A stretch of 64,000 bases of DNA from Thalassotalea hakodatensis (lineage in GTDB: Bacteria > Pseudomonadota > Gammaproteobacteria > Enterobacterales > Alteromonadaceae): NCBI RefSeq assembly GCF_030295995.1, contig NZ_AP027365.1:620001-684000 (forward strand). The letters are read 5' to 3'. This document shows, piece after piece, positions 1,817 to 31,663 of this stretch (positions are counted from its first letter, which is position 1; each line of letters starts with the position of its first letter). The position numbers and the translations under genes were made by a program. The notes beneath the pieces are model-generated. The model searched no databases and had not been told where the DNA came from. It worked only from the letters and a program-made list of their open reading frames with translations.

Positions 1817-2482
1817 TCAAAACGGGCAATCGGCTCCGATGGTTAGCATTCTTTGCTGAACTGGGTGATTAAATGTTAGTTCTCGTGCATGTAATAATAA
1901 ACGGTTGCTCATGCTAAGTGCTTGTGAGTGAGCATATAATCGATCTCCAAGTATGGGGTGGCCTAGATACAACATATGCACACGTAATTGATGAGAACGT
2001 CCCGTGACCGGCGTTAACTTAACTAAACTGGTTTGCTCGTCTGCACTTAGCACTTGGTAATGGGTCAGTGCCTTTTTACCAATCTTGTGGTCTATCTTTT
2101 GTTTTGGTCGATTCGGCCAGTCACAAATTAATGGTTGATCAATGGTTCCTGTTTCTTGCTCTGGATGACCAAAAATACGCGCAAGGTAGTATTTTTGCGT
2201 TAACCTTTTTTCAAATTGCCGACTAATTTCTACATGCGCGTGTTTATTTAATGCCATCAGCATGACACCTGAAGTTGCCATATCTAATCTGTGTACAATG
2301 GTAGCAGTTGGTAGTACACGTTGAACACGTGTTTGCAGACAGTCTTTATGCTCAGGTAGTCTTCCTGGTACAGAAAGAAGGCCACTTGGTTTATTCACCA
2401 CGACGATATCATTGTCTCGATACAGTATATCAAGGTAAGGAGATAACGGCGGTGAATAAACAAAATCAGGGTTTGCGCTCAT
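1817..2482 (-). CDS. rluA: Dual-specificity 23S rRNA/tRNA pseudouridine synthase RluA
   Basis: RluA converts uridine to pseudouridine at 23S rRNA position 746 and tRNA position 32. The 221-residue protein carries the family motif HRLDMATSG at residues 64-72 with catalytic Asp67, the N-terminal VVVNKPSGLLSVPG strand, and the C-terminal TPVTGRSHQLRVHM segment. There is no S4 domain, which separates it from RluC and RluD, and the length matches RluA. It begins only 2 bp after the rapA stop codon, so the two are probably co-transcribed, as in other gammaproteobacteria where rapA and rluA are adjacent. Confidence 0.93.
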   Translation of the reverse strand: MSANPDFVYSPPLSPYLDILYRDNDIVVVNKPSGLLSVPGRLPEHKDCLQTRVQRVLPTATIVHRLDMATSGVMLMALNKHAHVEISRQFEKRLTQKYYLARIFGHPEQETGTIDQPLICDWPNRPKQKIDHKIGKKALTHYQVLSADEQTSLVKLTPVTGRSHQLRVHMLYLGHPILGDRLYAHSQALSMSNRLLLHARELTFNHPVQQRMLTIGADCPF

Positions 2483-2484
2483 CG

Positions 2485-5403
2485 TTAGTGAGTCACCACG
2501 ATTAAACGGACTGCTTCGAATTTTAATTGTGCTTTTTCAATATAAGTCGTTAACTCTTGTTGTTGCAGACTAATAAAATCTAACTCTTCTTGACGAACAC
2601 TTGGATTGATAGCTTTTAACGCTGACAGTCTTTGCCATTCTTGTGTTAGCTTATCTGTCATTAGTGATTTGGCTGAAGTGATAAGCGAGTCAACATGCGA
2701 TTTGGCATGTGTCTCAGCTTTTTCAACCAGCGGAGATACTTGCTCTTTCAATGCTTTTATTAATTGTAAGGCAACCTGCTTTTTAACCGGAATGAGCTGT
2801 TGATCTAATACCGCTTCGCTGACTTTATCAGCAAGATTATTCCCTTTTTTATCAACCAATACACGAATTGGGGTGGTAGGTAAATAACGCTTCAGTTGCA
2901 GTTGGCTTGGCGCTGTTGCTTCAAGAGTGAACATACATTCTAGGAAGAATGTACCTGCAGGTAGTGCTGGGTTTTTAAGTAATCCAATACTTGAATTACC
3001 CACATCATCAGAAAGAACCAAATCAATCGCACCTGTTACCATGGGGTGGTCCCAAGTGAGCAAATGGTAATCTTCACAAGCTAAAGCGGTATCGCGATGA
3101 AAAGTGACTGTTGTACCATCATCAGGGAGACAAGGAAAGTTACCGCTTAACATATGTTCTGTAGGCTGTAAGGCAATAGCATTGTCTGCTTTGTCATCTT
3201 GTCCTATGCCAAACACGTCAAATACTTGAAACATAAATTGCGGTAAACGGGTATGGTTATCTTGCTGAATAATTTCATCAACTAACGTTTCAGCTCGGCC
3301 TTGTCCCGAAGAATTTAATTCTAACAATTTATCTCTGCCAGTTTCTAACTCTACCTTTATTTGTAAGTGTAATGTGTGACTGTCATCAACAAATTGTTTG
3401 ATTGATGCATCGTCAGCAACTGGCGAAAATTGTAAGTCTATTAATTGTTCTGTTTGAGCTTCGTATACGGAACGACCAGTAACACATGTATGCTCAAATG
3501 CGTTTAATCCTTGGTGATACCATTGGAATAAAGCGCTTTGCATTGAATGTTCAAAATAAGGCACATGTAAATTAACGGTTTGTGTTTGGCCGATTCGATC
3601 TAATCGTCCTATGCGTTGTTCGAGTAAATCAGGATTAGTTGGTAAATCAAATAACACTAAGTGATGGGCAAACTGAAAGTTCCTGCCTTCACTGCCAATT
3701 TCTGAACATAATAATACTTGGGCACTGTCTTCATCTTGGGCAAAGTATGCCGCTGCGCGATCTCGTTCGAAAATGCTTAACCCTTCATGAAATACAGCTG
3801 CTCTGATGCCTGCTTTTACTCGGAGGGCATTTTCTAATTCAATGGCGGTTTCAGCGTGTGCGCATATCACCAGTAATTTTTCTTTGTTTAGATCTTTTAA
3901 TAAAGTCGTTAAGTAATCAACGCGAGGGTCTATGTCGTACCATTGTTCAACAGACGCTAAACTGTATAAGCGTTCTGGTGTATTAATAAATTGTGCTTGT
4001 TTTTTAGCAACTAAATTTTCTCGGCTGTCTGATAATAAAAAATCTTCAATGCTTTCTTGATATGCTTGTGGCATGGTCAAAGGCGTAGCATGAAGCTTTC
4101 TTTCTGGAAAGCCTTTGATGGTATTTCGGCTATTTCTAAACAGAATGCGACCTGTACCATGCCGATCAAGCAGCTGATTTAATAATGTTTTACGTGCTTT
4201 CGATTGCTGTGCTTCATCCCCATTGAGATCAGCAAGTAGTGCACTGATATCACTTTCAGCCAGCAATGAAGTCAAAACTTGTTGTTGCTCATCATTTAAT
4301 GCGGTTTCAGCAACAAGCGCGTTGGCAGCATCAGCTACTTCGGTGTAATGCGTTTCTTCTTCTGTGAAGGTTTGATAATCATAAAATCGATCAGGGTCTA
4401 ATAATCGTAAACGAGCAAAGTGACTTTCATGACCAAGTTGATCTGGCGTTGCTGTTAAAAGTAAAACACCAGGAATTGTTTGAGCAAGTTGCTCTACACA
4501 AAGATATTCGATGCTTGCGTTATCAACTTGCCAATTTAAATGATGAGCCTCGTCAACGACCATCAGGTCCCATTTTTCTTCAATGAGTGCTTCATACCAC
4601 TGTGGTTGTTTAGTGATAAAATCTAGATTTACTAACACTAATTGTTCAGAAGAAAAAGGATTAACTGTTTCACCTTCATCACCTGAGTTAGCAATTTCTT
4701 GGCAACGTGTTTCGTCGAAAATGCTAAAGTGGAGATTAAAACGACGTAACATTTCAACTAGCCACTGATGAGTTAGCGATTCTGGCACAATAATCAATAC
4801 ACGTTGTGCCCTACCAGTAACCAACTGTTGATGAATGATTAACCCGGCTTCGATGGTTTTACCTAAGCCAACTTCATCGGCTAATAATACCCGTGGTGCA
4901 AATCGGCTGCCGACTTCATCTGCGATATATAGCTGATGTGGGATTAAACTAACGCGGCCGCCAGTTAAACCGGTAAGTAATGATTGTTGTTGCTGGAACT
5001 GATGTTTGAGGCTGTCTTTTCTTAAGCGAAACCAGTCTAACCTGTCGACTTGACCATTAAGTAAACGGTCATGGGGCTTATTAAATTTAATAAAGTGATC
5101 AATCATCACTTCTTTTAAACTTTCTGATGCTTCGTTATCAGTACGGATACCGTGGTAGGTTAATATCCCATTGGTTTCTTCTACATCATTAACAGATAAC
5201 TGCCAACCTTCGTGGCTAGGGATGATATCGCCCTGCTGGAAGATAACGCGAGTTAGCGGTGCGTTATCGATCGCATATTTTCTGATATCTCCGGTCGCGG
5301 TAAACATAATTGAGACAAAGCGACCTTCGACACTGGTGACTGTTCCTAATCCTTGGTCTGATTCTCCATCACTAATCCAACGTTGACCCTGCTGAAACGA
5401 CAT
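2485..5403 (-). CDS. rapA: RNA polymerase-associated helicase RapA
   Basis: RapA is a Swi2/Snf2-family ATPase that binds core RNA polymerase and promotes its recycling after transcription. Starting at the ATG at 5403 gives 972 residues beginning MSFQQGQRWISD, collinear with known RapA N-termini; GGAG lies 9 nt upstream. A longer in-frame start at 5433 lacks support. Visible are tandem N-terminal Tudor-like strands, Walker A DEVGLGKT (176-183), DEAH (284-287), LLLTATP, the helicase C-terminal block GSEGRNFQFAHHLVLFDLP with QRIGRLDRIGQ, and a C-terminal tail ending in RLIVVTH. All helicase motifs look intact. Confidence 0.96.
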   Translation of the reverse strand: MSFQQGQRWISDGESDQGLGTVTSVEGRFVSIMFTATGDIRKYAIDNAPLTRVIFQQGDIIPSHEGWQLSVNDVEETNGILTYHGIRTDNEASESLKEVMIDHFIKFNKPHDRLLNGQVDRLDWFRLRKDSLKHQFQQQQSLLTGLTGGRVSLIPHQLYIADEVGSRFAPRVLLADEVGLGKTIEAGLIIHQQLVTGRAQRVLIIVPESLTHQWLVEMLRRFNLHFSIFDETRCQEIANSGDEGETVNPFSSEQLVLVNLDFITKQPQWYEALIEEKWDLMVVDEAHHLNWQVDNASIEYLCVEQLAQTIPGVLLLTATPDQLGHESHFARLRLLDPDRFYDYQTFTEEETHYTEVADAANALVAETALNDEQQQVLTSLLAESDISALLADLNGDEAQQSKARKTLLNQLLDRHGTGRILFRNSRNTIKGFPERKLHATPLTMPQAYQESIEDFLLSDSRENLVAKKQAQFINTPERLYSLASVEQWYDIDPRVDYLTTLLKDLNKEKLLVICAHAETAIELENALRVKAGIRAAVFHEGLSIFERDRAAAYFAQDEDSAQVLLCSEIGSEGRNFQFAHHLVLFDLPTNPDLLEQRIGRLDRIGQTQTVNLHVPYFEHSMQSALFQWYHQGLNAFEHTCVTGRSVYEAQTEQLIDLQFSPVADDASIKQFVDDSHTLHLQIKVELETGRDKLLELNSSGQGRAETLVDEIIQQDNHTRLPQFMFQVFDVFGIGQDDKADNAIALQPTEHMLSGNFPCLPDDGTTVTFHRDTALACEDYHLLTWDHPMVTGAIDLVLSDDVGNSSIGLLKNPALPAGTFFLECMFTLEATAPSQLQLKRYLPTTPIRVLVDKKGNNLADKVSEAVLDQQLIPVKKQVALQLIKALKEQVSPLVEKAETHAKSHVDSLITSAKSLMTDKLTQEWQRLSALKAINPSVRQEELDFISLQQQELTTYIEKAQLKFEAVRLIVVTH

Positions 5404-21976: not shown

Positions 21977-23287
21977 TTGAAGCAAATACAAGCTTGGTGG
22001 TTTAGAAGCAACCTTTACAAGCGCATGCAAAATGCGAAATATTTTTTATTGCCATCATTGTTTAATAAAAAGCCTTGTATTGAAGTATATGTCGCGCTAA
22101 AAGATCCTCATAGCTATATGCTTATACAAGCGCTTATTCATATTGAACAACGTTATGAGGTAGACATAACATTATACCTTGTTTATGAATCTTTACCGGG
22201 GATAAACGTGTATCCCAAGCTTATGCGTCAGTGGGTGCTAACTGACGCTAATGTTATTGCACATCGCTATGGTTTAAAGGCAATTACCGTTGCGCCCAAT
22301 GACTCTCAATTATTAACAGGTCAGCAGTATTGGCAGCTATCAGTGAAAAATGTTGTCGATGCTGAAAAGCTTTTTACCACTACTTGGCAAGGCTCATTTG
22401 AATATTACTGTCAAACATCAACTCCGGTGATTAATTTTCAAATTAAAAATCAGCGTAGACTTGTTAATAAGGGACATTATTTAGCGGCCACCTGTTTTTT
22501 TGCTGGAGAATGGTTTTTAGGCGTGGATAGGTTAAAATATTTAGAGCAGCGATTACTGAGCCTAGGGTTGATAAAAAAAGACAGCGAACCGTATTTTCAG
22601 CATGAATTTAACGATGAACACTTCACTGATCTGACTGTACCAATAATTAAAGATAGAACTGTTGACGTTTATTTATCATTAAATTGCCCTTATTCGTATA
22701 TCGGGTTTGTTAAAGCGGTTCGTTTGGCAACAAAGCATCAATTAACATTATCGATTAAACCAATTATACCGATTGAAAAACGTGGCTTCAAAATTCCTGT
22801 TAATAAACAAAAATATATGTATATCGATGCTTATCGTGAAGCGAAAGCAGCCGATATAGCATTTTCAAATACTATTACTTGGTTTGATCAACACGTAGTG
22901 TGTTGTTACCAAATTTTTTCTTATGCAGCAGCGCAGGGGAAAGCCATTGATTATGTTAGCGCGGTTTTTAACGCTTTATTTGTTGAGTCTATTAACCTGA
23001 ATGATAAGCATGCAATGAAGAGAATGTGTCAGCAATTACAGATTGATCATGCTGAAGCGCTAGCCTACCAACAACAACATGATTGGCAAGTGTGGGCTGA
23101 ACAACATGTCAAAGAATTAGCTGAATTAGGTTTATGGGGAACTCCTTGTTTTAGATATCAAAGCACAAGTTGCTGGGGACAAGATAGATTCTTTTTAATC
23201 GAACAAGCTATTTCGCAACCCCCGGAAGTGAACAGTGAATATAGTGAAGAAGGTTATCCGGTTAAGGTTAATGTAAAAAGGCTTTAG
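21977..23287 (+). CDS. Tandem DsbA-like (2-hydroxychromene-2-carboxylate isomerase type) protein
   Basis: The 436-residue protein contains two thioredoxin-fold DsbA/GST-kappa-like domains: one from IEVYVALKDPHSYM (about 34) and one from VDVYLSLNCPYSYIGF (about 224), the second ending in the GLWGTPCFRY cis-proline loop. Each opens with a [D/N]CPYSY- or KDPHSY-type turn rather than CxxC, so glutathione-type isomerase chemistry is more likely than disulfide exchange. There is no signal peptide. The start is uncertain: TTG at 21977 is 18 nt from AGGAG (21954-21958), while an in-frame ATT at 21965 is at an ideal 6 nt. Function unknown. Confidence 0.75.
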   Translation: MKQIQAWWFRSNLYKRMQNAKYFLLPSLFNKKPCIEVYVALKDPHSYMLIQALIHIEQRYEVDITLYLVYESLPGINVYPKLMRQWVLTDANVIAHRYGLKAITVAPNDSQLLTGQQYWQLSVKNVVDAEKLFTTTWQGSFEYYCQTSTPVINFQIKNQRRLVNKGHYLAATCFFAGEWFLGVDRLKYLEQRLLSLGLIKKDSEPYFQHEFNDEHFTDLTVPIIKDRTVDVYLSLNCPYSYIGFVKAVRLATKHQLTLSIKPIIPIEKRGFKIPVNKQKYMYIDAYREAKAADIAFSNTITWFDQHVVCCYQIFSYAAAQGKAIDYVSAVFNALFVESINLNDKHAMKRMCQQLQIDHAEALAYQQQHDWQVWAEQHVKELAELGLWGTPCFRYQSTSCWGQDRFFLIEQAISQPPEVNSEYSEEGYPVKVNVKRL

Positions 23288-23366: not shown

Positions 23367-24251
23367 TTAAGCTAATAGTGTTTCGGTCACTTCAGTATCG
23401 CGAGCCATCCATAGCCTATCGTTGAATTTATCAAAAATTGAAAGATATCTTTTATTAAGGTCTCCGATGACTTTTTTTGGCGTTAACGCTATTTCGCTTT
23501 CTTTTTCTCCTGTTATTGAATAAAACTCAAGCTTGAAAGGCGCTGAATGCGTTTTAACTAATAAATGTGCACAATCAGTTGAAAACTGGCTAACACCCTT
23601 TGAAACCTCAGAAATGATGTTTTCGTTGCCATCTATTAACGAGCAAAGCTCTGATCTATCGCTAGGGTTGTCCATATGCATTTTGAAGTACTCACATCGG
23701 TGAAATAAAATGGTATTATTCACGTAAGCAACAGAGCAATCTGAGATATGCGAAGATTGAGATTTTTTCATTGAGTAAATAAAAGGATCATGAGTCGCAT
23801 ATTTATCATGAAGGTAAACCTTGGTGAAATAACTACTTTTAAATTTATAGAAATAATCTTCTAAGGGAAAAAGTAGCTCGTTATCTGCGATTTTGATTGC
23901 AGTTTTCAATGGACCTGTTTCATGTTGGTTATCTTCGGGAAAAGGCGATTTAAATGGGTATTTCTTAAATATTTTATTGTTAAAGTCATATTCAATGACG
24001 CTATGATCAAGAACACAGCCAAATCCAGAATCAGTTTTATAAAGCGCCCCCCTGTAGTTGAAATGATCAAATTTCATTCTAGGGATTTCATAATCAAGTA
24101 CTTCAAAATGTCCTGACTTCAATATTAGGAACCTTCCGCTACAGTGAGCATGAGAACCTAAAACGACACAAATTTCATTGGGTAATGAAATGCATCCATG
24201 GACAAAATAAGGCAAGTTATATTTGTTCAGTACTTTTGTTTTTAAAGCCAT
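23367..24251 (-). CDS. Uncharacterised protein, possibly beta-propeller-like
   Basis: I do not recognise this 294-residue protein. It has no signal peptide or membrane segment. Its sequence alternates short hydrophobic strands with turns (GRFLILKSGHFEVLDYE, GALYKTDSGFGCVLD, NNTILFHRCEYF, LLVKTHSAPFKLEFYS), which suggests an all-beta, propeller-like fold, with the ending NDRLWMARDTEV reminiscent of a closing strand. The coding strand is AT-rich compared with the flanking genes. It stands alone, convergent with the DsbA-like gene and divergent from the lysine-riboswitch operon, as a recently acquired or lineage-specific gene would. Confidence 0.6.
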   Translation of the reverse strand: MALKTKVLNKYNLPYFVHGCISLPNEICVVLGSHAHCSGRFLILKSGHFEVLDYEIPRMKFDHFNYRGALYKTDSGFGCVLDHSVIEYDFNNKIFKKYPFKSPFPEDNQHETGPLKTAIKIADNELLFPLEDYFYKFKSSYFTKVYLHDKYATHDPFIYSMKKSQSSHISDCSVAYVNNTILFHRCEYFKMHMDNPSDRSELCSLIDGNENIISEVSKGVSQFSTDCAHLLVKTHSAPFKLEFYSITGEKESEIALTPKKVIGDLNKRYLSIFDKFNDRLWMARDTEVTETLLA

Positions 24252-24431
24252 ATGAAATATTTATAAAAAGTTATTAACTATCAGTTGGTTAATATTAATA
24301 GCACATTAAAAAGGGTAAGTTAAGTAGGTGGATTAACTTCTATGTCCGAAGGTGCTTTAACCAAATAGCGTGTTGAACAATATTGTCAGATAAAGAAGAC
24401 TTTCATTACGTAAAGGGTTGGTGGTTGCGAG

Positions 24432-24455
24432 ATATTAGAATAAATGTTCTAATAT
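24432..24455. promoter_or_regulatory. 24-bp palindromic operator candidate before the lysine riboswitch
   Basis: ATATTAGAA and TTCTAATAT form a perfect 9-bp inverted repeat around a 6-bp spacer (TAAATG), 48 bp upstream of the aptamer. It fits a dimeric repressor site over or next to the promoter; no known consensus is matched. If transcribed it would form a hairpin instead. Confidence 0.4.
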
Positions 24456-24502
24456 GGAGTCCCTTTTATCGTAGGTGGGTTTCACCGGCCTACGCAAATA
24501 GG

Positions 24503-24667
24503 GCCAGAAGAGGCGCGTTTACTAGGTAGTTAATGGGAAGAGATCAAACTCTTATGAACATTAACCAGGGAGTATAACGCCGAGATAAATATATATTTGA
24601 TGATGTATTTGTCGGTTGTTCAGGCTGAATCCTGGCAACTGTCACCGTAAGGTGGAGAGCTTCTGGC
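24503..24667 (+). promoter_or_regulatory. Lysine riboswitch (L-box) aptamer
   Basis: The 165-nt element has the conserved lysine aptamer parts in order: P1 5' strand GCCAGAAG, the AGAGGCGCGTT core, GCCGAGATAAAT, GGCTGAATCC, TGTCACC, and GTGGAGAGCTTCTGGC whose end closes P1. These match the E. coli lysC leader closely. Lysine binding should stabilise P1. Downstream, GGAGAGCTTCTGG (24653-24665) is also complementary to CCTTCAGCTCTCC near 24717-24729, giving an alternative helix that would break P1. It controls the dapD-like operon starting at 24802. Confidence 0.93.
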
Positions 24668-24747
24668 CTTTGTCAGGTTTAGCTACTTCTCTTACGTAGT
24701 TATTCGTCTGCAAAGCCTTCAGCTCTCCATTTAATTTACACGTTATC

Positions 24748-24772
24748 GCGTGGCATTTCTGCCGCGCTTTTT
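24748..24772 (+). terminator. Riboswitch expression-platform terminator
   Basis: GCGTGGCA/TGCCGCGC form an 8-bp stem (one G-T pair) with a 4-nt loop followed by five T, 30 bp before the dapD-like start. Its placement after the aptamer suggests transcriptional attenuation by lysine. Confidence 0.75.
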
Positions 24773-24801
24773 GAACTGTTAGTTTTTGGAGAATTTACCT
24801 A

Positions 24802-25551
24802 GTGAGTTGGCAACACACCTTAGAACAATTAGAAGCAGGCACCATTAGAGCGGCTAATAAAGATGAGCATGGTACATGGCATGCAAATGTCGCGGCTAAA
24901 GAAGCGATATTAGCGGCTTTCAAAGCTGGAGAAAATACAGCATTTACGGGGCCATACCAAGGATTTGTTGATAAACATAATCTACCCGCCAGAGAAATGA
25001 CCGTTGCTGACGGTGTGCGCCTTGTACCGGGCGGCTCTTCTATACGTCGAGGTGCACATGTTTCACCTGGCGTAATTGTTATGCCACCAGCTTATATCAA
25101 TGTGGGGGCATTTGTTGACGAAGGTACCATGGTAGACAGTCACGCTTTGATTGGCTCATGTGCGCAAATTGGTAAAAATGTGCATGTGTCTGCCGCGGTA
25201 CAAATTGGTGGTGTATTAGAGCCTATTGGTGCGAGCCCTGTAATTGTTGAAGATGACGCATTTCTTGGGGCGGGTGTTGTCGTTGTTGAAGGTATCGTGA
25301 TCCGCAAAGGGGCAGTGCTTGCTCCGGGCGTAACACTTTCTGCTTCTGTGCCTGTTTACGATTGTGTTAACCATGTGCAACTAGCTAAAGGTGCTGATAT
25401 TCCTGAACGTGCGGTTGTGGTGCCCGGCACTCGACCGGTATCAGGTTTATGGGCTAATGAAAATGGGTTGAACATGGCTTGTGCGCTGATTGTTAAATAT
25501 CGTGATGAACAAAGTGATGCTTCATTAACGCTTGAATCAGTACTTCGATAA
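24802..25551 (+). CDS. dapD: Tetrahydrodipicolinate N-succinyltransferase-like protein (DapD family)
   Basis: DapD succinylates tetrahydrodipicolinate in the diaminopimelate/lysine route, using succinyl-CoA. The 249-residue protein starts at a GTG with GGAG 10 nt upstream. Its left-handed beta-helix of hexapeptide repeats contains the DapD hallmarks INVGAFVDEGTMVDSHALIGSCAQIGKNVH and GGVLEPIGASPVIVEDDAFLGAG. It is about 25 residues shorter than E. coli DapD, with a different N-terminal domain, so it is a divergent branch, perhaps with altered acyl donor or substrate. It is the first gene behind the lysine riboswitch and 11 bp ahead of the decarboxylase. Confidence 0.88.
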   Translation: MSWQHTLEQLEAGTIRAANKDEHGTWHANVAAKEAILAAFKAGENTAFTGPYQGFVDKHNLPAREMTVADGVRLVPGGSSIRRGAHVSPGVIVMPPAYINVGAFVDEGTMVDSHALIGSCAQIGKNVHVSAAVQIGGVLEPIGASPVIVEDDAFLGAGVVVVEGIVIRKGAVLAPGVTLSASVPVYDCVNHVQLAKGADIPERAVVVPGTRPVSGLWANENGLNMACALIVKYRDEQSDASLTLESVLR

Positions 25552-25562
25552 CAGGAGAAAAT

Positions 25563-26819
25563 ATGCAGCACTCAACGGGTGAGCAACTAACCAATAACTG
25601 GTATCAACAGTTTCAAAAAAGTGAAGGTCTACAACAGGCATTAAGTCATCATGTTAGTGATAATGTCGATGAACTTGCTTACTTTGTTTACGACTTAAAT
25701 GCATTAAAAAGTCATTTATCTTCCTTACAGCAACAAGATGTAGTGAAACTTTGGTATGCAGTAAAGGCAAACCCTTTATCACGTATTATTCAAACGGTTG
25801 ATCAAGCAGGGATTCAGTTTGACGTTGCCAGTAGCGGTGAACTACAGCAAGTGCTTGACCAAAATGTGAGTGCTAATCGAATACTCAATACTGGCCCTGC
25901 TAAATCGCGCGCTCAACTTGCCGAGTTTCTAGCCAAAGGGGTCAACACGTTTGTTGTTGAAAGTCCTAATCAGCTGAAGTGGTTGAATGAGCTAGCAAAT
26001 GAGCAGTCGGTAACGCCTGATGTGCTGTTACGAGTACAGTTACAATGGCCTGATGGTGAGAAAAATCCGTTAGGTGGTAACCAAATAACGCCGTTTGGTA
26101 TGTCATTAGACGCGTGGAAAAGCCATCATGTATCTTTGTATCCGCACCTGAATATATGTGGTCTACATATTTTTCAGTGGGGTAACATGTTGTCGAATAA
26201 AACAATGTATGCCCTATGGCAGCAAATGATAGAGCCTTTAGTGTCGCTTGCTAAAACCCTTGGTATGTCGTTAAAAATACTCGATTTAGGTGGTGGTTTA
26301 GGGATTGATTACCATGAGCACGGACAACAGTTACATTGGCCAGATATTATTGCCGATCTGGCGAAAATTAAGCAACAGGCAAATGTTGCCGAGCTATGGC
26401 TAGAACTTGGTAGATATGCTGTAGCTAATTGTGGTTACTATGTGACCTCAGTGGTTGATAAAAAGGTTAATTTTGACCAACAGCAATTAGTGCTAGCGGC
26501 AGGGATTAACCATTTGTTGCGACCGGGGATAACCGAGCAGCCTTTTCCTGTTCGGCTTTTACGTGATTCCTCGCAAAAAAATACGCTATTCGATTTACAT
26601 GGTCCGTTATGTACCAGTATGGATAAGCTTGGTAACTTACCGTTACCAACGGATGTAGATATAGATGACCGCTTATTATTTGGTTATGTAGGCGCATATG
26701 GTTTTACTGAGAGTATGCCATTCTTTTTATGCCATCAAACCGCTGCAGAATATGTTTATTGTGAGCAAGAGCTATCTCTTGTACGTGCAGCAAAGCCTGC
26801 GCAGTGGTATCTAGCATAA
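25563..26819 (+). CDS. Diaminopimelate decarboxylase-like PLP enzyme (fold type III)
   Basis: The 418-residue enzyme has the alanine-racemase barrel and C-terminal beta domain of LysA-type decarboxylases. PLP-binding Lys68 is in WYAVKANPL; FDVASSGE, ILDLGGGLGIDY and ELGRYAV form the phosphate and substrate sites; Cys350 in HGPLCTSMD and GYVGAYGFTES complete the active site from the second subunit. Its position behind a lysine riboswitch and a dapD-like gene favours meso-diaminopimelate as substrate, giving lysine. Carboxynorspermidine decarboxylase is the main alternative, because the specificity loop is not the canonical CESSD form. The gene is followed closely by the deacylase. Confidence 0.8.
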   Translation: MQHSTGEQLTNNWYQQFQKSEGLQQALSHHVSDNVDELAYFVYDLNALKSHLSSLQQQDVVKLWYAVKANPLSRIIQTVDQAGIQFDVASSGELQQVLDQNVSANRILNTGPAKSRAQLAEFLAKGVNTFVVESPNQLKWLNELANEQSVTPDVLLRVQLQWPDGEKNPLGGNQITPFGMSLDAWKSHHVSLYPHLNICGLHIFQWGNMLSNKTMYALWQQMIEPLVSLAKTLGMSLKILDLGGGLGIDYHEHGQQLHWPDIIADLAKIKQQANVAELWLELGRYAVANCGYYVTSVVDKKVNFDQQQLVLAAGINHLLRPGITEQPFPVRLLRDSSQKNTLFDLHGPLCTSMDKLGNLPLPTDVDIDDRLLFGYVGAYGFTESMPFFLCHQTAAEYVYCEQELSLVRAAKPAQWYLA

Positions 26820-26836
26820 TAATAAAAGAGACGATA

Positions 26837-27964
26837 ATGACAAATTTTACAAAAGACGTGATGCATGTAGGTGAAATGGCCAGTGGCGCAGCACTAACGG
26901 TTCCAGTGTATCGACTTAAAGGTGATTCAACAGCGCCGAGTGTATATATTCAGGCGAACATGCACGGTGCAGAAGTACAAGGTAACGCGGTAATTTTCCA
27001 ATTGCTGGAGTTATTAAGGAATACGCACGTTAAGGGTGATATTACCCTGGTACCGTATGCTAACCCTGTTGGTTGCAACCATAAAAATGGTGAATATACA
27101 CTAGGTAGGTTTGATCCTATCACCGGCGTTAATTGGAATAGAATGTATCATTTTTCGCCTGAAATGATAAAGCCGTTTGTCCGTGAGAGTATTGGTAAAG
27201 ACGATAAAACCATTGAGGCGAACTTTAAAGCATTAATGATCCAAAGTATTGAACAAAAACTTAATCACAATATTTTTGGTTTAACGACTGGGCAACGAAT
27301 CGCTTATCAGCTGCAGCGCTTAGCACACCAAGCAGACCTTGTGCTTGACTTGCATACTGGGCCAATATCTAGCAAACACTTATATTGCCCAGAATACGCA
27401 AAAGAAAGCGCTAAACACTTTGATATTCCGCATACCTTGTTGATCCCAAATCAATTTGACGGCGCATTAGATGAAGCAACCTTTTGCCCCTGGTGGCATC
27501 TACAAGAAGCTTTCGCAGAGTTAGGTATTAACTTTTCGATTAGCTCTGCTTCATTGAATAAAGAAAGCTTTACCGTTGAACTTGGCTCACAAGAACAAAT
27601 TGATTTAGATGTGGCTTTAGAAGATGCGCAAAGTATTTTGAGTTACTTACAGTATAAAGGCGTCATTGATGCGCCAGAATACCAAGCAAAACAAATGACT
27701 CGTTATGCATGTATGTTAAAAGACTATAAAGCCTATTATTCACCCATGGGCGGAATGGTAGATTATTTGGCTGAATTCGGACAACCTTTGCCTGCTGGCG
27801 AGCCGTTAGCAAGAATATTAAGAATGGATAACTATGGTGATGGTGATCCTCTGCATTATTTATCTTTGGATCAAGAAGTTATTCCTATTTTGCACTTTGC
27901 ATCAGCAAGTGTTAACCAGGGCACTGAACTTTATAAAGTGTTTACTAAGTATTTTACCTTGTAA
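26837..27964 (+). CDS. AstE/AspA-family zinc deacylase (succinylglutamate desuccinylase-like)
   Basis: Starting at the ATG at 26837 (purine-rich AAAGAGA upstream; a GTG at 26804 would overlap the decarboxylase) the protein has 375 residues. It is a carboxypeptidase-like zinc enzyme: His43 and Glu46 in NMHGAEVQG and His173 in DLHTGP are the zinc ligands, and Glu248 in FTVELGS is the catalytic base. Family members remove succinyl or acetyl groups from amino acids. As the third gene of a lysine-riboswitch operon with a DapD-like succinyltransferase, it is a good candidate to desuccinylate N-succinyl-diaminopimelate in place of the M20 enzyme DapE. That role is inference. Confidence 0.8.
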   Translation: MTNFTKDVMHVGEMASGAALTVPVYRLKGDSTAPSVYIQANMHGAEVQGNAVIFQLLELLRNTHVKGDITLVPYANPVGCNHKNGEYTLGRFDPITGVNWNRMYHFSPEMIKPFVRESIGKDDKTIEANFKALMIQSIEQKLNHNIFGLTTGQRIAYQLQRLAHQADLVLDLHTGPISSKHLYCPEYAKESAKHFDIPHTLLIPNQFDGALDEATFCPWWHLQEAFAELGINFSISSASLNKESFTVELGSQEQIDLDVALEDAQSILSYLQYKGVIDAPEYQAKQMTRYACMLKDYKAYYSPMGGMVDYLAEFGQPLPAGEPLARILRMDNYGDGDPLHYLSLDQEVIPILHFASASVNQGTELYKVFTKYFTL

Positions 27965-28068: not shown

Positions 28069-28587
28069 TTATTCTTCCGCGTGTTCTTTGATGTAAGCAA
28101 AGAGATCTCGATATGATTTACCCGGTTTTTCAGCGTTATGCTCTTTAGCTGCTTGGCGGACAAGTTGCCTTAATTTTTGTCGTTCCATTGCTGGGTATTG
28201 TTTAAGCATGGCTTCAATTTTATCGTTACCTTGAGTAATAAGGTCATCACGCAATTGTTCTAAACGTAAATGACGTGAGGTGTCTTGCTGATGTTTATTC
28301 GCCATTATATCTAATGCTTGATTCACATCTGTTAAATCAGTTTCAAGTAACACTTTACTCATAAACCTGACATGACGGCGTAATGCTTCAGGCTTATTTT
28401 TAATTTTGTCAGCGAGCGCTAACGCTTCAAGAATTTCTTCAGGAAAGGGCACTTTCGCGCGCTGTGCTTTGGAAAGCTTAACCAATTTCATGGCAAAGTC
28501 TTGCATAGCGTGCATTTCACGTTTTATTTCGGTTTTACTTTTATAATCTTCATCGAATTCATCGATATCGTGTTCGTACTGAGGCAT
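28069..28587 (-). CDS. darP: Ribosome maturation protein DarP (YjgA, DUF615)
   Basis: YjgA/DarP associates with 50S precursors and helps late large-subunit assembly. The highly charged, all-helical protein shows SKTEIKREM near the N-terminus and MERQKLRQLVRQAAKEH with KSYRDLFAYIKE near the C-terminus, as in the family. The ATG at 28587 gives 172 residues beginning MPQYEHDID; an upstream ATG at 28617 would add an unconserved MLKIFNDSVI. Neither has a clear ribosome binding site. It is divergent from pmbA, and the yjgA-pmbA pairing is conserved in gammaproteobacteria. Confidence 0.9.
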   Translation of the reverse strand: MPQYEHDIDEFDEDYKSKTEIKREMHAMQDFAMKLVKLSKAQRAKVPFPEEILEALALADKIKNKPEALRRHVRFMSKVLLETDLTDVNQALDIMANKHQQDTSRHLRLEQLRDDLITQGNDKIEAMLKQYPAMERQKLRQLVRQAAKEHNAEKPGKSYRDLFAYIKEHAEE

Positions 28588-28687
28588 AATAACGCTATCA
28601 TTAAAAATTTTAAGCATTATACAACAAGCGCGAACTCGCCTCTAGCAGTGAGAGCGTTTGCTTGCAACAAAAGAGCTATATTGACGA

Positions 28688-30031
28688 ATGACCGATATAA
28701 AAACAATCCCTGAACAAATGACAGATGTTAAACAAACCGTCGCAGACGCCTTAGCCTTAGCGAAAACACTAGGTGCAGATGGTGCTGAAGTGTCGATGAG
28801 CAGACAACAAGGTTTGAGTGTAACAACAAGACTAGGCGATGTTGAAACGGTTGAATTTACCAGTGACGGTGCTTTAGGAATAACGGTTTACCAGCAAGGA
28901 AGAAAGGGGAGTGCTTCAACCGCTGATTTATCGCAAGATGCGTTGAATCAAACAGTGCAAGCTGCAGTCAATATTGCTAAATATACGTCAGTGGATGAAA
29001 GTTCTGGGCTGGCAGATAAAGCGTTATTGGCAATGCAGCCGAAAGACTTAGATTTATACCACCCTAAAGTATTAACAACGGAAGAAGCGATTGATTTAGC
29101 CAATTCCTGTGAACAAGCTGCATTAAGTGCCGATGACAAGATCACTAACTCAGATGGCGCCACTTTGGCTTGTTTTGAGGGTTTTAAAGTTTATGGTAAT
29201 AGTCATGGTCAGATTGTGGGATACCCAAGTACCCGTCATAGTTTAAGTTGTGTCGTGATAGCCGCAGATAATGACGAAATGCAACGAGATTATGCTTATA
29301 GTGTCAGTCGTGAATTTTCACAATTAAATGCTCCGGAAGCTATCGGTAAAGAAGCGGCCAATGAAGTGCTTGCGCGTCTTAATGCACAAAAACTACCGAC
29401 GGCTAAGGTGCCTGTTATGTTTCGTGCAGATATTGCTAACACCTTTTGGGGACACTTTATTGCCGCTATTAGCGGCGGTAATTTATATCGTAAATCATCA
29501 TTTTTATTAGATGCATTGGGCGAGCAAATCTTTCCTTCGTTTTTAACGATAGAAGAAAAACCACATATTTTAAAAGGTTTAGCCAGCAGCGCATTTGATA
29601 GCGAAGGTGTAACCACGAATGATCGGGAAATTATCAAAAACGGTGATTTAGCCACCTATTTATTAACCAGTTATTCTGCGAGAAAATTAGGCATGACAAC
29701 AACAGGGCATGCTGGTGGTATTCATAACTGGCAGGTCAGTGCCAATGGTGGTGATTTTGACGCAATGTTAAAAACCTTAGGCACAGGTTTATTAGTGACA
29801 GAATTAATGGGCCAAGGTGTTAATGTTGTTAACGGCGATTATTCAAGAGGAGCAGCAGGTTTTTGGGTTGAAAATGGTGAAATTGCTTTTCCTGTTTCTG
29901 AAGTCACGATTGCAGGCAACCTACAAGACATGTTTAAAAATTTAGTGGCTGTTGGTAACGATTACGACCTAAAAGGCGCTATTAAAACCGGTTCAATTAT
30001 TATTGATCAAATGCAAGTCGCTGGAAATTAA
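28688..30031 (+). CDS. pmbA: Metalloprotease PmbA (TldE)
   Basis: PmbA/TldE forms a heterodimer with TldD that matures modified peptides and helps degrade the CcdA antitoxin. The 447-residue protein has the U62 family pattern: DGAEVSMSRQQGLSVTTRLGDVETVEF at the start and SYSARKLGMTTTGHAGG, MGQGVNVVNGDYSRGAAGFWVENGE at the end. It lacks the HExxxH zinc site found in TldD, as expected of the TldE subunit. tldD is not in the window. A weak hairpin CCGCAAT/ATTGCGG (30049-30068) follows the stop. Confidence 0.94.
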   Translation: MTDIKTIPEQMTDVKQTVADALALAKTLGADGAEVSMSRQQGLSVTTRLGDVETVEFTSDGALGITVYQQGRKGSASTADLSQDALNQTVQAAVNIAKYTSVDESSGLADKALLAMQPKDLDLYHPKVLTTEEAIDLANSCEQAALSADDKITNSDGATLACFEGFKVYGNSHGQIVGYPSTRHSLSCVVIAADNDEMQRDYAYSVSREFSQLNAPEAIGKEAANEVLARLNAQKLPTAKVPVMFRADIANTFWGHFIAAISGGNLYRKSSFLLDALGEQIFPSFLTIEEKPHILKGLASSAFDSEGVTTNDREIIKNGDLATYLLTSYSARKLGMTTTGHAGGIHNWQVSANGGDFDAMLKTLGTGLLVTELMGQGVNVVNGDYSRGAAGFWVENGEIAFPVSEVTIAGNLQDMFKNLVAVGNDYDLKGAIKTGSIIIDQMQVAGN

Positions 30032-30085
30032 CAGTGCTTAGTTGAGTGCCGCAATCTAGCAATTGCGGTGAGCAGCTGATTTGAA

Positions 30086-31444
30086 TTAACCCAGCAGTAA
30101 TGCTGCTGTACCTAAGAAGGCAAAAATGCCCACTACGTCAGTAATGGTTGTTAATATCACGCTTCCTGCTAATGCAGGATCAATATTCATTCGTTTGAGC
30201 ATAAGTGGGATAGTAACCCCTGCTATCCCAGCTGCAGTCATATTCATTAACATAGCAAAAGCAATAATACCGGCGAGTATTATGTCTTGTTTCCAAATAC
30301 CTACTACCGCGGCAATTAAAATTGCCCAAATAATGCCATTCAAAAAGCCAACGGCTAACTCTTTCATTAACAATACGCGGGAGTTTGAATCACCAACGTG
30401 GCCAAGTGCGATACCGCGGATCACTAGTGTTAGCGTTTGATTGCCTGCAACACCGCCCATGCTAGGAACGAGTGTGTTTAAAATGGCGAGAATGGTTAAT
30501 TGGCTTAAAATATCTTCAAACATGTTAGACACAACAACGGCAAAAATAGCGGTTATTAAGTTAACACCTAGCCATATAGAGCGGCGTTGAGTACTTTTTA
30601 ATATAGGCGCAAACGTATCCGCTTCATCATCAAGACCCGCCATACTCATCATAGAGTGCTCGGCTTCTTCACGGATGATATCGACAATATCATCTACAGT
30701 AATCCGACCTAATAAACGACCGTTATCATCAATCACCGGGGCAGAGAACCAATCATAACGTTCAAAGAGTTGCGCAACTTCTGTTTCGGGCATTTCAACA
30801 TTTACGGCTTCAATATCCGCATGAATTAACGTTGAAATAGACTCTTCTGGCTTTGCGGTAACGATAGCTGCAAGTGATACAGCACCAATAAATTTATCAT
30901 TACGGTCAACGACATAAAAAGAATCGGTGGCGACAGGTAATTCGCCCTTTAAACGTAAATACCTGAGTACAACATCCACGGTTACGTCAGGACGTATCGT
31001 GATGGTATCGGTATTCATGATACCACCAGCGGTATCTTCTTCGTATGAAAGTGCTTGTTCTACACGGCTTCGATCTTGCGAATCCATTGAATTTAGCACT
31101 TCGTTATAGACAGTATCTGGTAGTGTTCTTAACACCTCTGCAAGATCATCAACATCCATACCTTCAGCAACTTCTGCTAACTTTTCTGGACGGATATTTT
31201 TTAAGATGCCTTTACGTACTTCTTCACTTAACTCTTCTAATACTTCGCCATGATGATCAGGATCGATAAGTTGCCATAAAATAGTACGACTTTTATTTGG
31301 GGACGACTCAAGCAGTAGAGCGAGATCATAAGCGGGCATGTTTTGTAGTAGTTTGCGGACATAAACAAACATACCGCTGCCAAGCGCTTCATTGACTTGT
31401 TGTAGGCGTTGTTGGCTTTGTTCTTGTTCTGACACTTCCGGCAT
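30086..31444 (-). CDS. mgtE: Magnesium transporter MgtE
   Basis: MgtE is a magnesium-gated Mg2+ channel of the inner membrane. The protein has an MgtE N domain of helical repeats (about 20-125), a CBS pair that senses cytoplasmic Mg2+ (about 130-250, with EEDTAGGIMNTD), and five transmembrane helices (about 280-450) with the pore motif PSMGGVAGNQTLTLVIRG. I take the ATG at 31444, preceded by AAGGG; a GTG at 31468 has no ribosome binding site. It sits between pmbA and the nitrogen-PTS genes. I saw no magnesium riboswitch upstream. Confidence 0.93.
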   Translation of the reverse strand: MPEVSEQEQSQQRLQQVNEALGSGMFVYVRKLLQNMPAYDLALLLESSPNKSRTILWQLIDPDHHGEVLEELSEEVRKGILKNIRPEKLAEVAEGMDVDDLAEVLRTLPDTVYNEVLNSMDSQDRSRVEQALSYEEDTAGGIMNTDTITIRPDVTVDVVLRYLRLKGELPVATDSFYVVDRNDKFIGAVSLAAIVTAKPEESISTLIHADIEAVNVEMPETEVAQLFERYDWFSAPVIDDNGRLLGRITVDDIVDIIREEAEHSMMSMAGLDDEADTFAPILKSTQRRSIWLGVNLITAIFAVVVSNMFEDILSQLTILAILNTLVPSMGGVAGNQTLTLVIRGIALGHVGDSNSRVLLMKELAVGFLNGIIWAILIAAVVGIWKQDIILAGIIAFAMLMNMTAAGIAGVTIPLMLKRMNIDPALAGSVILTTITDVVGIFAFLGTAALLLG

Positions 31445-31663
31445 CATGCTACCCTTTGCCGTTTTCACGAAATTTGAATGCTAAAAATGAAACAGATGGG
31501 TGATGTTCTTAGAACGTCACCAAGGCATCTACTATATTTGGTATTATAGTCTATCTCAACTGGTTGGTTTTAGCAGCTTTTTTCTTATTGTAAATGTGAA
31601 CACTACATTGGCATAAAGGGGCGTTTTTCGTGTACGTTTATAATATCACCAAAGGCGAACACA

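Follow-up and report, generated by a model that had tools for sequence, protein, structure and literature searches.

Textbook bacterial lysine synthesis proceeds via free meso-diaminopimelate (meso-DAP). The closest described systems are the succinylase branch of this pathway (DapD, DapC, DapE, DapF and LysA), the acetylase branch (DapH, PatA and an N-acetyl-DAP deacetylase, the known form of which belongs to family M20), the acyl-substrate decarboxylases SbnH, FigC/FslC and BtrK, and two deacylases of N-alpha-acetyl-diamino acids, DoeB (N2-acetyl-L-2,4-diaminobutanoate deacetylase) and SO_3749 (N-acetylornithine deacetylase). The window analysed here, a stretch of 64,000 nucleotides (nt) of the Thalassotalea hakodatensis contig NZ_AP027365.1 (positions 620,001 to 684,000), contains three genes, termed A, B and C, on one strand (+) downstream of a lysine-sensing leader. 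The reading favoured here, tentatively and at not quite an even chance, is that A-B-C would form a branch of the DAP pathway dedicated to lysine, repressible by lysine and retaining its N-acyl group to the end, with substrates predicted from sequence. Papers cited below by PMC number are quoted from excerpts. Lysine riboswitch regulons in general are listed in PMC3766115, and the excerpt of PMC5764234, on gaps in amino acid pathways, mentions no such route. Within the open-licence PMC literature no paper was found on an A-B-C operon or on acyl-lysine as a biosynthetic intermediate; a regulon database might list the genes. The elements of the locus are as follows.

24500-24670, + strand: lysine riboswitch aptamer RF00168 (Rfam cmscan, 93 bits, full length)
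24650-24732, + strand: alternative 12-base-pair (bp) helix, 24650-24661 with 24721-24732 (from folding, putative role)
24748-24772, + strand: intrinsic terminator between the aptamer and gene A (terminator scan, fold z -3.0)
24802-25551, + strand: gene A, DapD-like hexapeptide N-acyltransferase, putative acyl group succinyl or acetyl (249 amino acids (aa), GTG start)
25563-26819, + strand: gene B, alanine-racemase-fold pyridoxal phosphate decarboxylase, proposed N-acyl-L,L-DAP decarboxylase (418 aa)
26412-26414, 26520-26522 and 26613-26615, + strand: gene B residues R284, R320 and T351, respectively
26837-27964, + strand: gene C, AstE/AspA-type (M14) zinc deacylase, proposed N-alpha-acyl-lysine and/or N-acyl-DAP deacylase (key residues H43, E46, R102, H173 and E248, numbered from the ATG)

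Relative to the succinylase branch, the backbone chemistry is expected to be the same up to N-acyl-L,L-DAP, and a DapD-like acyltransferase and lysine control are common to both. The A-B-C unit differs in having no M20 DapE and in the proposal that deacylation comes last; no dapF was recognised in A-B-C-type operons when their open reading frame (ORF) lists were read by eye. Furthermore, neither B nor C qualifies under the canonical models, and A qualifies under just one of the two for DapD. A resembles the acetylase branch in being neutral where DapD has Arg and Glu, as in two solved DapH; unlike that branch, A falls under the DapH cut-off and is otherwise DapD-like, and the C deacylase is M14, not M20.

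At the gathering threshold, Rfam matches the window only once, with the lysine aptamer at 24500-24670 (+), which scores 93 bits against a gathering score of 30 (E 2.9e-23, model positions 1-182). The terminator consists of an 8-pair stem at 24748-24767 followed by TTTTT up to 24772. Scanning 24300-24900 returned two terminator-like sites, one per strand, where shuffles expect 0.5, and the z of -3.0 was obtained for the 46 nt at 24735-24780. The sequence-only reading of this DNA had placed a lysine riboswitch and terminator ahead of three genes that it described as DapD-like, LysA-like and AstE/AspA-type, and both the leader and the superfamily identities are borne out by the model matches. The 24650-24661 arm of the alternative helix is the 3’ side of the aptamer and competes with the aptamer 3’ strand; the fold of 24650-24775 reaches -50.3 kcal/mol (z -7.56), and the helix is probably part of the expression platform. 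Because a terminator is present and known lysine riboswitches behave in this way, the leader is predicted to terminate at high lysine and so turn the branch off.

The substrate proposed for B is predicted from its active-site residues. B is under the cut-offs of both LysA TIGR01048 (186.4 bits, cut-off 297.9) and an exosortase-associated decarboxylase model (183 bits, cut-off 478). In a tree of 31 rows, including one unrelated 363-aa ORF from locus L008 as an outlying row, the B sequences form a clade (100/100) within a larger clade (95/99) holding SbnH, BtrK and the exosortase-type decarboxylase, and eight LysA rows form a separate clade (96/95) with B outside it. SbnH acts on citryl-diaminopropionate and BtrK on a glutamyl-carrier, both at L centres (PMC7857480). 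In the DAP decarboxylase of T. maritima, the distal carboxylate is bound by Arg249 and Arg285 and the distal amine by Glu315; most of the activity on DAP is lost in the E315T variant, whose main substrate is 2-aminopimelate, a compound with no distal amine (PMC8277567). Both distal-carboxylate arginines (R284 and R320) are kept in 14/14 B sequences, and the Glu position beside the catalytic Cys is Thr (T351) in all 14 and Glu in 8/8 LysA rows, with motif spacings that agree within one residue (3, 36, 31 and 28 in B vs 3, 36, 30 and 28 in the LysA-type enzyme). With both arginines kept and threonine in the place of the glutamate, B is predicted to act on a compound whose distal end carries a carboxylate but no free amine, namely N-acyl-DAP. 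SbnH, FigC/FslC and BtrK share the fold of B, and SbnH and BtrK also its clade and its Cys-Thr, but in this alignment the latter two are without the LysA-type RP arginine (R320) that B keeps; B further differs from all of them in belonging to a lysine operon rather than to a gene cluster for a siderophore or an antibiotic.

Two other assignments of B-like genes found no support. The refuting case raised by the sequence-only reading, that B prefers carboxynorspermidine, is not supported by the nspC model, which matched 7/14 B with a best E of 1.1e-7, vs 14/14 at approximately 1e-61 for the LysA/PEP1 models. The LysA-like genes of about 175 bits found in genomes with lysC-C units do not look like displaced copies of B: the seven such loci that were read (L134, L135, L137-L140 and L142) match B in part only, at 54-59 bits. 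The window’s own genome has another LysA-like gene (G000:C1:351594-352790, L008), which groups with SbnH and BtrK and has Cys-Thr; it presumably resembles the exosortase-A-type decarboxylase.

Gene A exceeds the cut-off of DapD NF008808 (293.9 bits, cut-off 204) and falls under those of DapD TIGR00965 (184.3 bits, cut-off 375.4) and DapH TIGR03532 (92.5 bits, cut-off 231.75). Most DapD motifs are kept. The ARSE stretch of DapD, present in 4/4 DapD rows and 0/9 A, reads AG[VCA][VI] in 9/9 A, which is closer to the AN[AV]V of the two solved DapH. The Glu of ARSE, E189, is a candidate general base of DapD. For the P. aeruginosa enzyme, Glu221 has been named as the general base (PMC3281039). Because the motif is absent from all nine A sequences, a role for A as a succinyltransferase is doubtful; of the initial description of A as a divergent DapD-like succinyltransferase, the DapD-like part stands and the succinyl part is in question. 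If the acyl group is not succinate, DapE would be prevented from draining the branch, and the presence of A beside canonical DapD would be accounted for.

Gene C encodes 375 aa from its ATG, within a mechanical ORF that begins at the GTG at 26804. In Pfam it matches AstE_AspA_cat and M14, not M20, the family of DapE (TIGR01246), with 94.5 bits to the catalytic domain PF24827 (cut-off 25). The C alignment comprises 34 of 36 chosen loci that were picked by a regular expression containing H43 and E46, making these two invariant by construction. H173 and E248 are invariant in 34/34, and the two dropped loci carry all four residues, in agreement with the His43/Glu46/His173/Glu248 set originally named for the window’s C. 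H43, E46 and H173 are presumed zinc ligands and E248 the presumed catalytic glutamate. PDB entries 3fmc and 3lwu are of the same AstE/AspA-like subfamily as C (435 and 427 bits), and are named only ‘(putative) succinylglutamate desuccinylase/aspartoacylase’.

Among 13 C sequences scanned, the DoeB model was matched weakly by all 13 (window’s C 33.8 bits, cut-off 402.7) and the Shewanella N-acetylornithine deacetylase model weakly by nine (window’s C 12.1 bits, cut-off 400). The nearest named models are therefore deacetylases of N-alpha-acetyl-diamino acids, all weak matches far under their cut-offs, and lysine would continue the series. Arginine-catabolic AstE (TIGR03242) was matched by 0/13 at E 0.1, and aspartoacylase NF002601 (cut-off 180) by 1/13, at E 0.011. 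On these matches both identities are rejected for C, the first of which had been named as a refuting case. SO_3749 has no detectable homology to ArgE and yet can complement an E. coli argE mutant (PMC3219624), a precedent for a non-homologous stand-in; judging from the model’s name, SO_3749 is likely the founder of NF052223.

The genome of the window (G000, 4.28 Mb in one contig) carries canonical dapE (557 bits), dapD (481 bits) and lysA (538 bits), all outside the A-B-C operon, and therefore the operon is a second set there. The canonical lysA is adjoined by dapF (305 bits, cut-off 114.65). The sequence-only reading had suggested that C replaces DapE or serves a parallel route, and had advised a search for a second dapD and for dapE elsewhere in the genome. 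With canonical dapE present, C as the sole DapE of Thalassotalea hakodatensis is ruled out; the parallel route stands, and replacement is plausible in four other genomes considered below. Genes for DarP, PmbA and MgtE adjoin the operon in the window (28069-31468), in the distant genome G029 (L180) and, as far as the flanks extend, at 16-17 of 74 related loci, and because these neighbours recur the location looks ancestral. Upstream of the riboswitch lie genes for two proteins, one of 436 aa whose C-terminal half contains a DSBA domain (21977-23287) and one of 294 aa that matches nothing in Pfam (23367-24251).

In named genomes of Thalassotalea, Colwellia and similar types, 74 loci bear C. Their gene order is dapA-A-B-C at 42, A-B-C at 24, dapA-C at five, C alone at two and a truncated B-C at one; A and B are both present at 66, neither is present at seven, and the remaining locus is interrupted by the end of its contig. 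With a covariance model made from 14 aptamers, the lysine riboswitch was found at 69/74 loci and not at L033, L073, L074, L078 and L080. Across the order, C exceeds 200 bits in 48/295 genomes. Neighbourhoods read for 20 of these 48 comprised lysC-C (six), lysC-dapA-A-B-C, dapA-A-B-C and dapB-A-B-C (one each) and C alone (11). The riboswitch precedes 6/6 lysC-C units and the long units L131 and L132, and none was found at the dapB-A-B-C locus or the 11 C-alone loci (L118, L121-L129 and L133). LysC and two DapA from these operons exceed their model cut-offs. Because the same riboswitch heads lysC-dapA-A-B-C, dapA-A-B-C, dapA-C, lysC-C and lysC-dapB-dapA-A-B, the riboswitch-headed units with lysC, dapA, dapB, A, B and C are a lysine-biosynthesis regulon. 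The lysine control and the link of the deacylase to lysine claimed from the window alone are thus upheld in relatives, where lysC, dapA or dapB adjoin C or A-B-C and the riboswitch is conserved.

Searches for lysA and dapE covered 52 chosen genomes, 48 with C and four without, and each gene was over its cut-off in 51 of them. The dapD model was run on 29 genomes (25 of the 52 and four others), 18 of which have A. B adjoins A in all 18, and C adjoins B in 15, the exceptions being three genomes of one family, f76. On plasmids no B was found, nor on viral contigs in a search sensitive to close relatives only; 21 plasmid records hold distant C relatives, with 27-32% identity among the 15 matches listed.

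The f76 genomes (G343, G481 and G585) are small, at 2.0-2.1 Mb, with a GC content of 33-34% in the loci read, and are 99-100% complete. When a profile of 14 B sequences was searched against 369 genomes of the class at a threshold of E 1e-60, they were the only matches besides the window’s genome. All three operons have the order lysC-dapB-dapA-A-B behind a lysine riboswitch. No DapE over the cut-off was found in f76 (none at E 0.001 in G343 and G585; best 39.6 bits in G481), nor any canonical dapD over the cut-off, only A. LysA over the cut-off is present; its matches in G481 and G585 were flagged with internal stops, and the ORFs read there are open, at 393 aa each. Each f76 genome has a C relative elsewhere (363, 365 and 366 aa), with 34-37% identity to the window’s C. 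The fourth genome, G029, is a draft of 220 contigs (92% complete, 5% contamination) that has A, B and C and no dapD or dapE over the cut-offs; its genus-mate G003 has dapD and dapE and no match to G029’s C. With A, B and a C relative present and neither dapD nor dapE found in canonical form, C may plausibly do the work of DapE in these four genomes.

Several further features of these lineages were observed. A short divergent DapB (225 aa) is common to the f76 operon (L153:8845-9522) and the G029 operon (L180:1002-1679), scoring 82 and 107 bits, respectively, under the TIGR00036 cut-off of 122, and suggests common descent of the two gene sets. L154 has two lysine riboswitches about 1.6 kb apart (2442-2621 and 4010-4189), one before an aminotransferase gene and the other before lysC-dapB-dapA-A-B. 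The best models for this aminotransferase are aspartate aminotransferases, below every cut-off shown, and it may supply the missing transamination step of the branch. At L168, which belongs to an f76 genome with no M20 match of DapE type, an aspartoacylase-type gene and a gene for ornithine carbamoyltransferase are neighbours (1483-2352 and 2363-3292), and the former might be standing in for ArgE.

In the branch proposed for A-B-C, low lysine would allow read-through of the leader. A would then acylate tetrahydrodipicolinate, and a general aminotransferase would convert the product to N-acyl-L,L-DAP. B would decarboxylate the free-amine end of this compound, an L centre, giving N-alpha-acyl-L-lysine, from which C, as a zinc deacylase, would free L-lysine. 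For lysine, DapE, DapF and LysA would be bypassed, and cell-wall synthesis would still draw its meso-DAP from the housekeeping genes. Ample lysine would make the riboswitch favour termination and so shut the branch. That B would act before C is suggested by its residues and by relatives. N-acyl-L,L-DAP is probably a further substrate of C; this would explain why C occurs in lysC-C and dapA-C units and in genomes where no dapE match was found. A fuller form of the proposal is possible, though less sure: A, B and the M14 enzyme C would lead from tetrahydrodipicolinate to lysine via N-alpha-acyl-lysine, the acyl group may not be succinate and would insulate lysine from wall DAP, and in the small genomes without DapE and canonical DapD, C would supply wall DAP as well.

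A number of observations weigh against this branch. Canonical LysA is present in 17/18 A-B genomes, and none with A-B-C is convincingly without LysA; the lone A-B genome that lacks it, G096, is a 93% complete draft also without canonical dapD. C is present without A and B in many genomes and so cannot act on B’s product alone, and the lysC-C units are more readily explained by a DapE-like C than by one that deacylates acyl-lysine. For B, the tree program gave long-branch warnings, most other Glu315 mutants of the T. maritima enzyme retained some DAP activity (PMC8277567), and 2-aminopimelate, the substrate of E315T, is not an N-acyl-DAP. The predicted L specificity of B derives solely from its clade, whereas LysA acts on a D centre. 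With an AlphaFold model of B (mean predicted local distance difference test score 78.9, low at 315-324 and 378-391), Foldseek ranks LysA 2qgh first and SbnH third; the two match about equally, and therefore the fold does not decide the type of B. In the leader, the alternative helix and the terminator do not overlap.

In f76 the C relative is unlinked to A-B, no riboswitch was found at the three C loci, and the negative searches there did not extend to dapF, dapL or DAP dehydrogenase, which leaves room for a different source of DAP. Each f76 genome has three to five AstE/AspA-type matches over the cut-off, and the other deacylases read comprise a gene that matches DoeB better (67.6 bits, L170) and two copies of aspartoacylase type. 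Because these further genes are present, C is the leading, though not the sole, candidate for the f76 deacylase in place of DapE. In the G029 operon region, likewise, no riboswitch was found.

The strongest rival is a conventional pathway in which A is a DapD isoenzyme and B a LysA isoenzyme, N-succinyl-L,L-DAP is desuccinylated by C as a non-homologous DapE, and lysine is made via DapF and meso-DAP. It would explain why C lies beside lysC or dapA without A and B, and why G343, G481, G585 and G029 have A and a C relative and no canonical dapE or dapD that could be found; the replacement of ArgE in Shewanella by SO_3749, an unrelated hydrolase, offers a parallel (PMC3219624). However, the B sequences lack the distal-amine Glu of LysA in 14/14 and lie outside the LysA clade, and a second meso-DAP decarboxylase would be redundant beside the canonical lysA of 17/18 A-B genomes. 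The idea that B is a LysA isoenzyme for meso-DAP is accordingly doubtful, and this pathway as a whole appears unlikely.

In a reversed order, C would release L,L-DAP before B acts, and B would decarboxylate this compound directly to lysine, so that only DapF and LysA are bypassed. Such an order would fit C acting on N-acyl-DAP everywhere, and characterised members of B’s clade do act on L centres (PMC7857480). This order is improbable, as B has no acidic residue straight after its catalytic Cys to hold a free distal amine. The least probable alternative is that C is a general N-alpha-acyl-amino-acid deacylase (for instance releasing aspartate for LysC or salvaging acyl-lysine) and A-B make another metabolite, to which the riboswitch-free C-alone loci (L118, L121-L129 and L133) and the aspartoacylases of C’s Pfam family lend some support, but C is repeatedly placed with lysC, dapA, dapB, A and B under a lysine riboswitch, and only one of 13 C touched the aspartoacylase model.

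If the acyl-retaining branch proposed for A-B-C is correct, decarboxylation of an acylated DAP with deacylation last would uncouple lysine supply from cell-wall supply. Likely substrates would also emerge for three groups of proteins that now carry the model names dapD, lysA-like and succinylglutamate desuccinylase-like, and there would be an explanation for how a genome might manage without canonical dapD and dapE.

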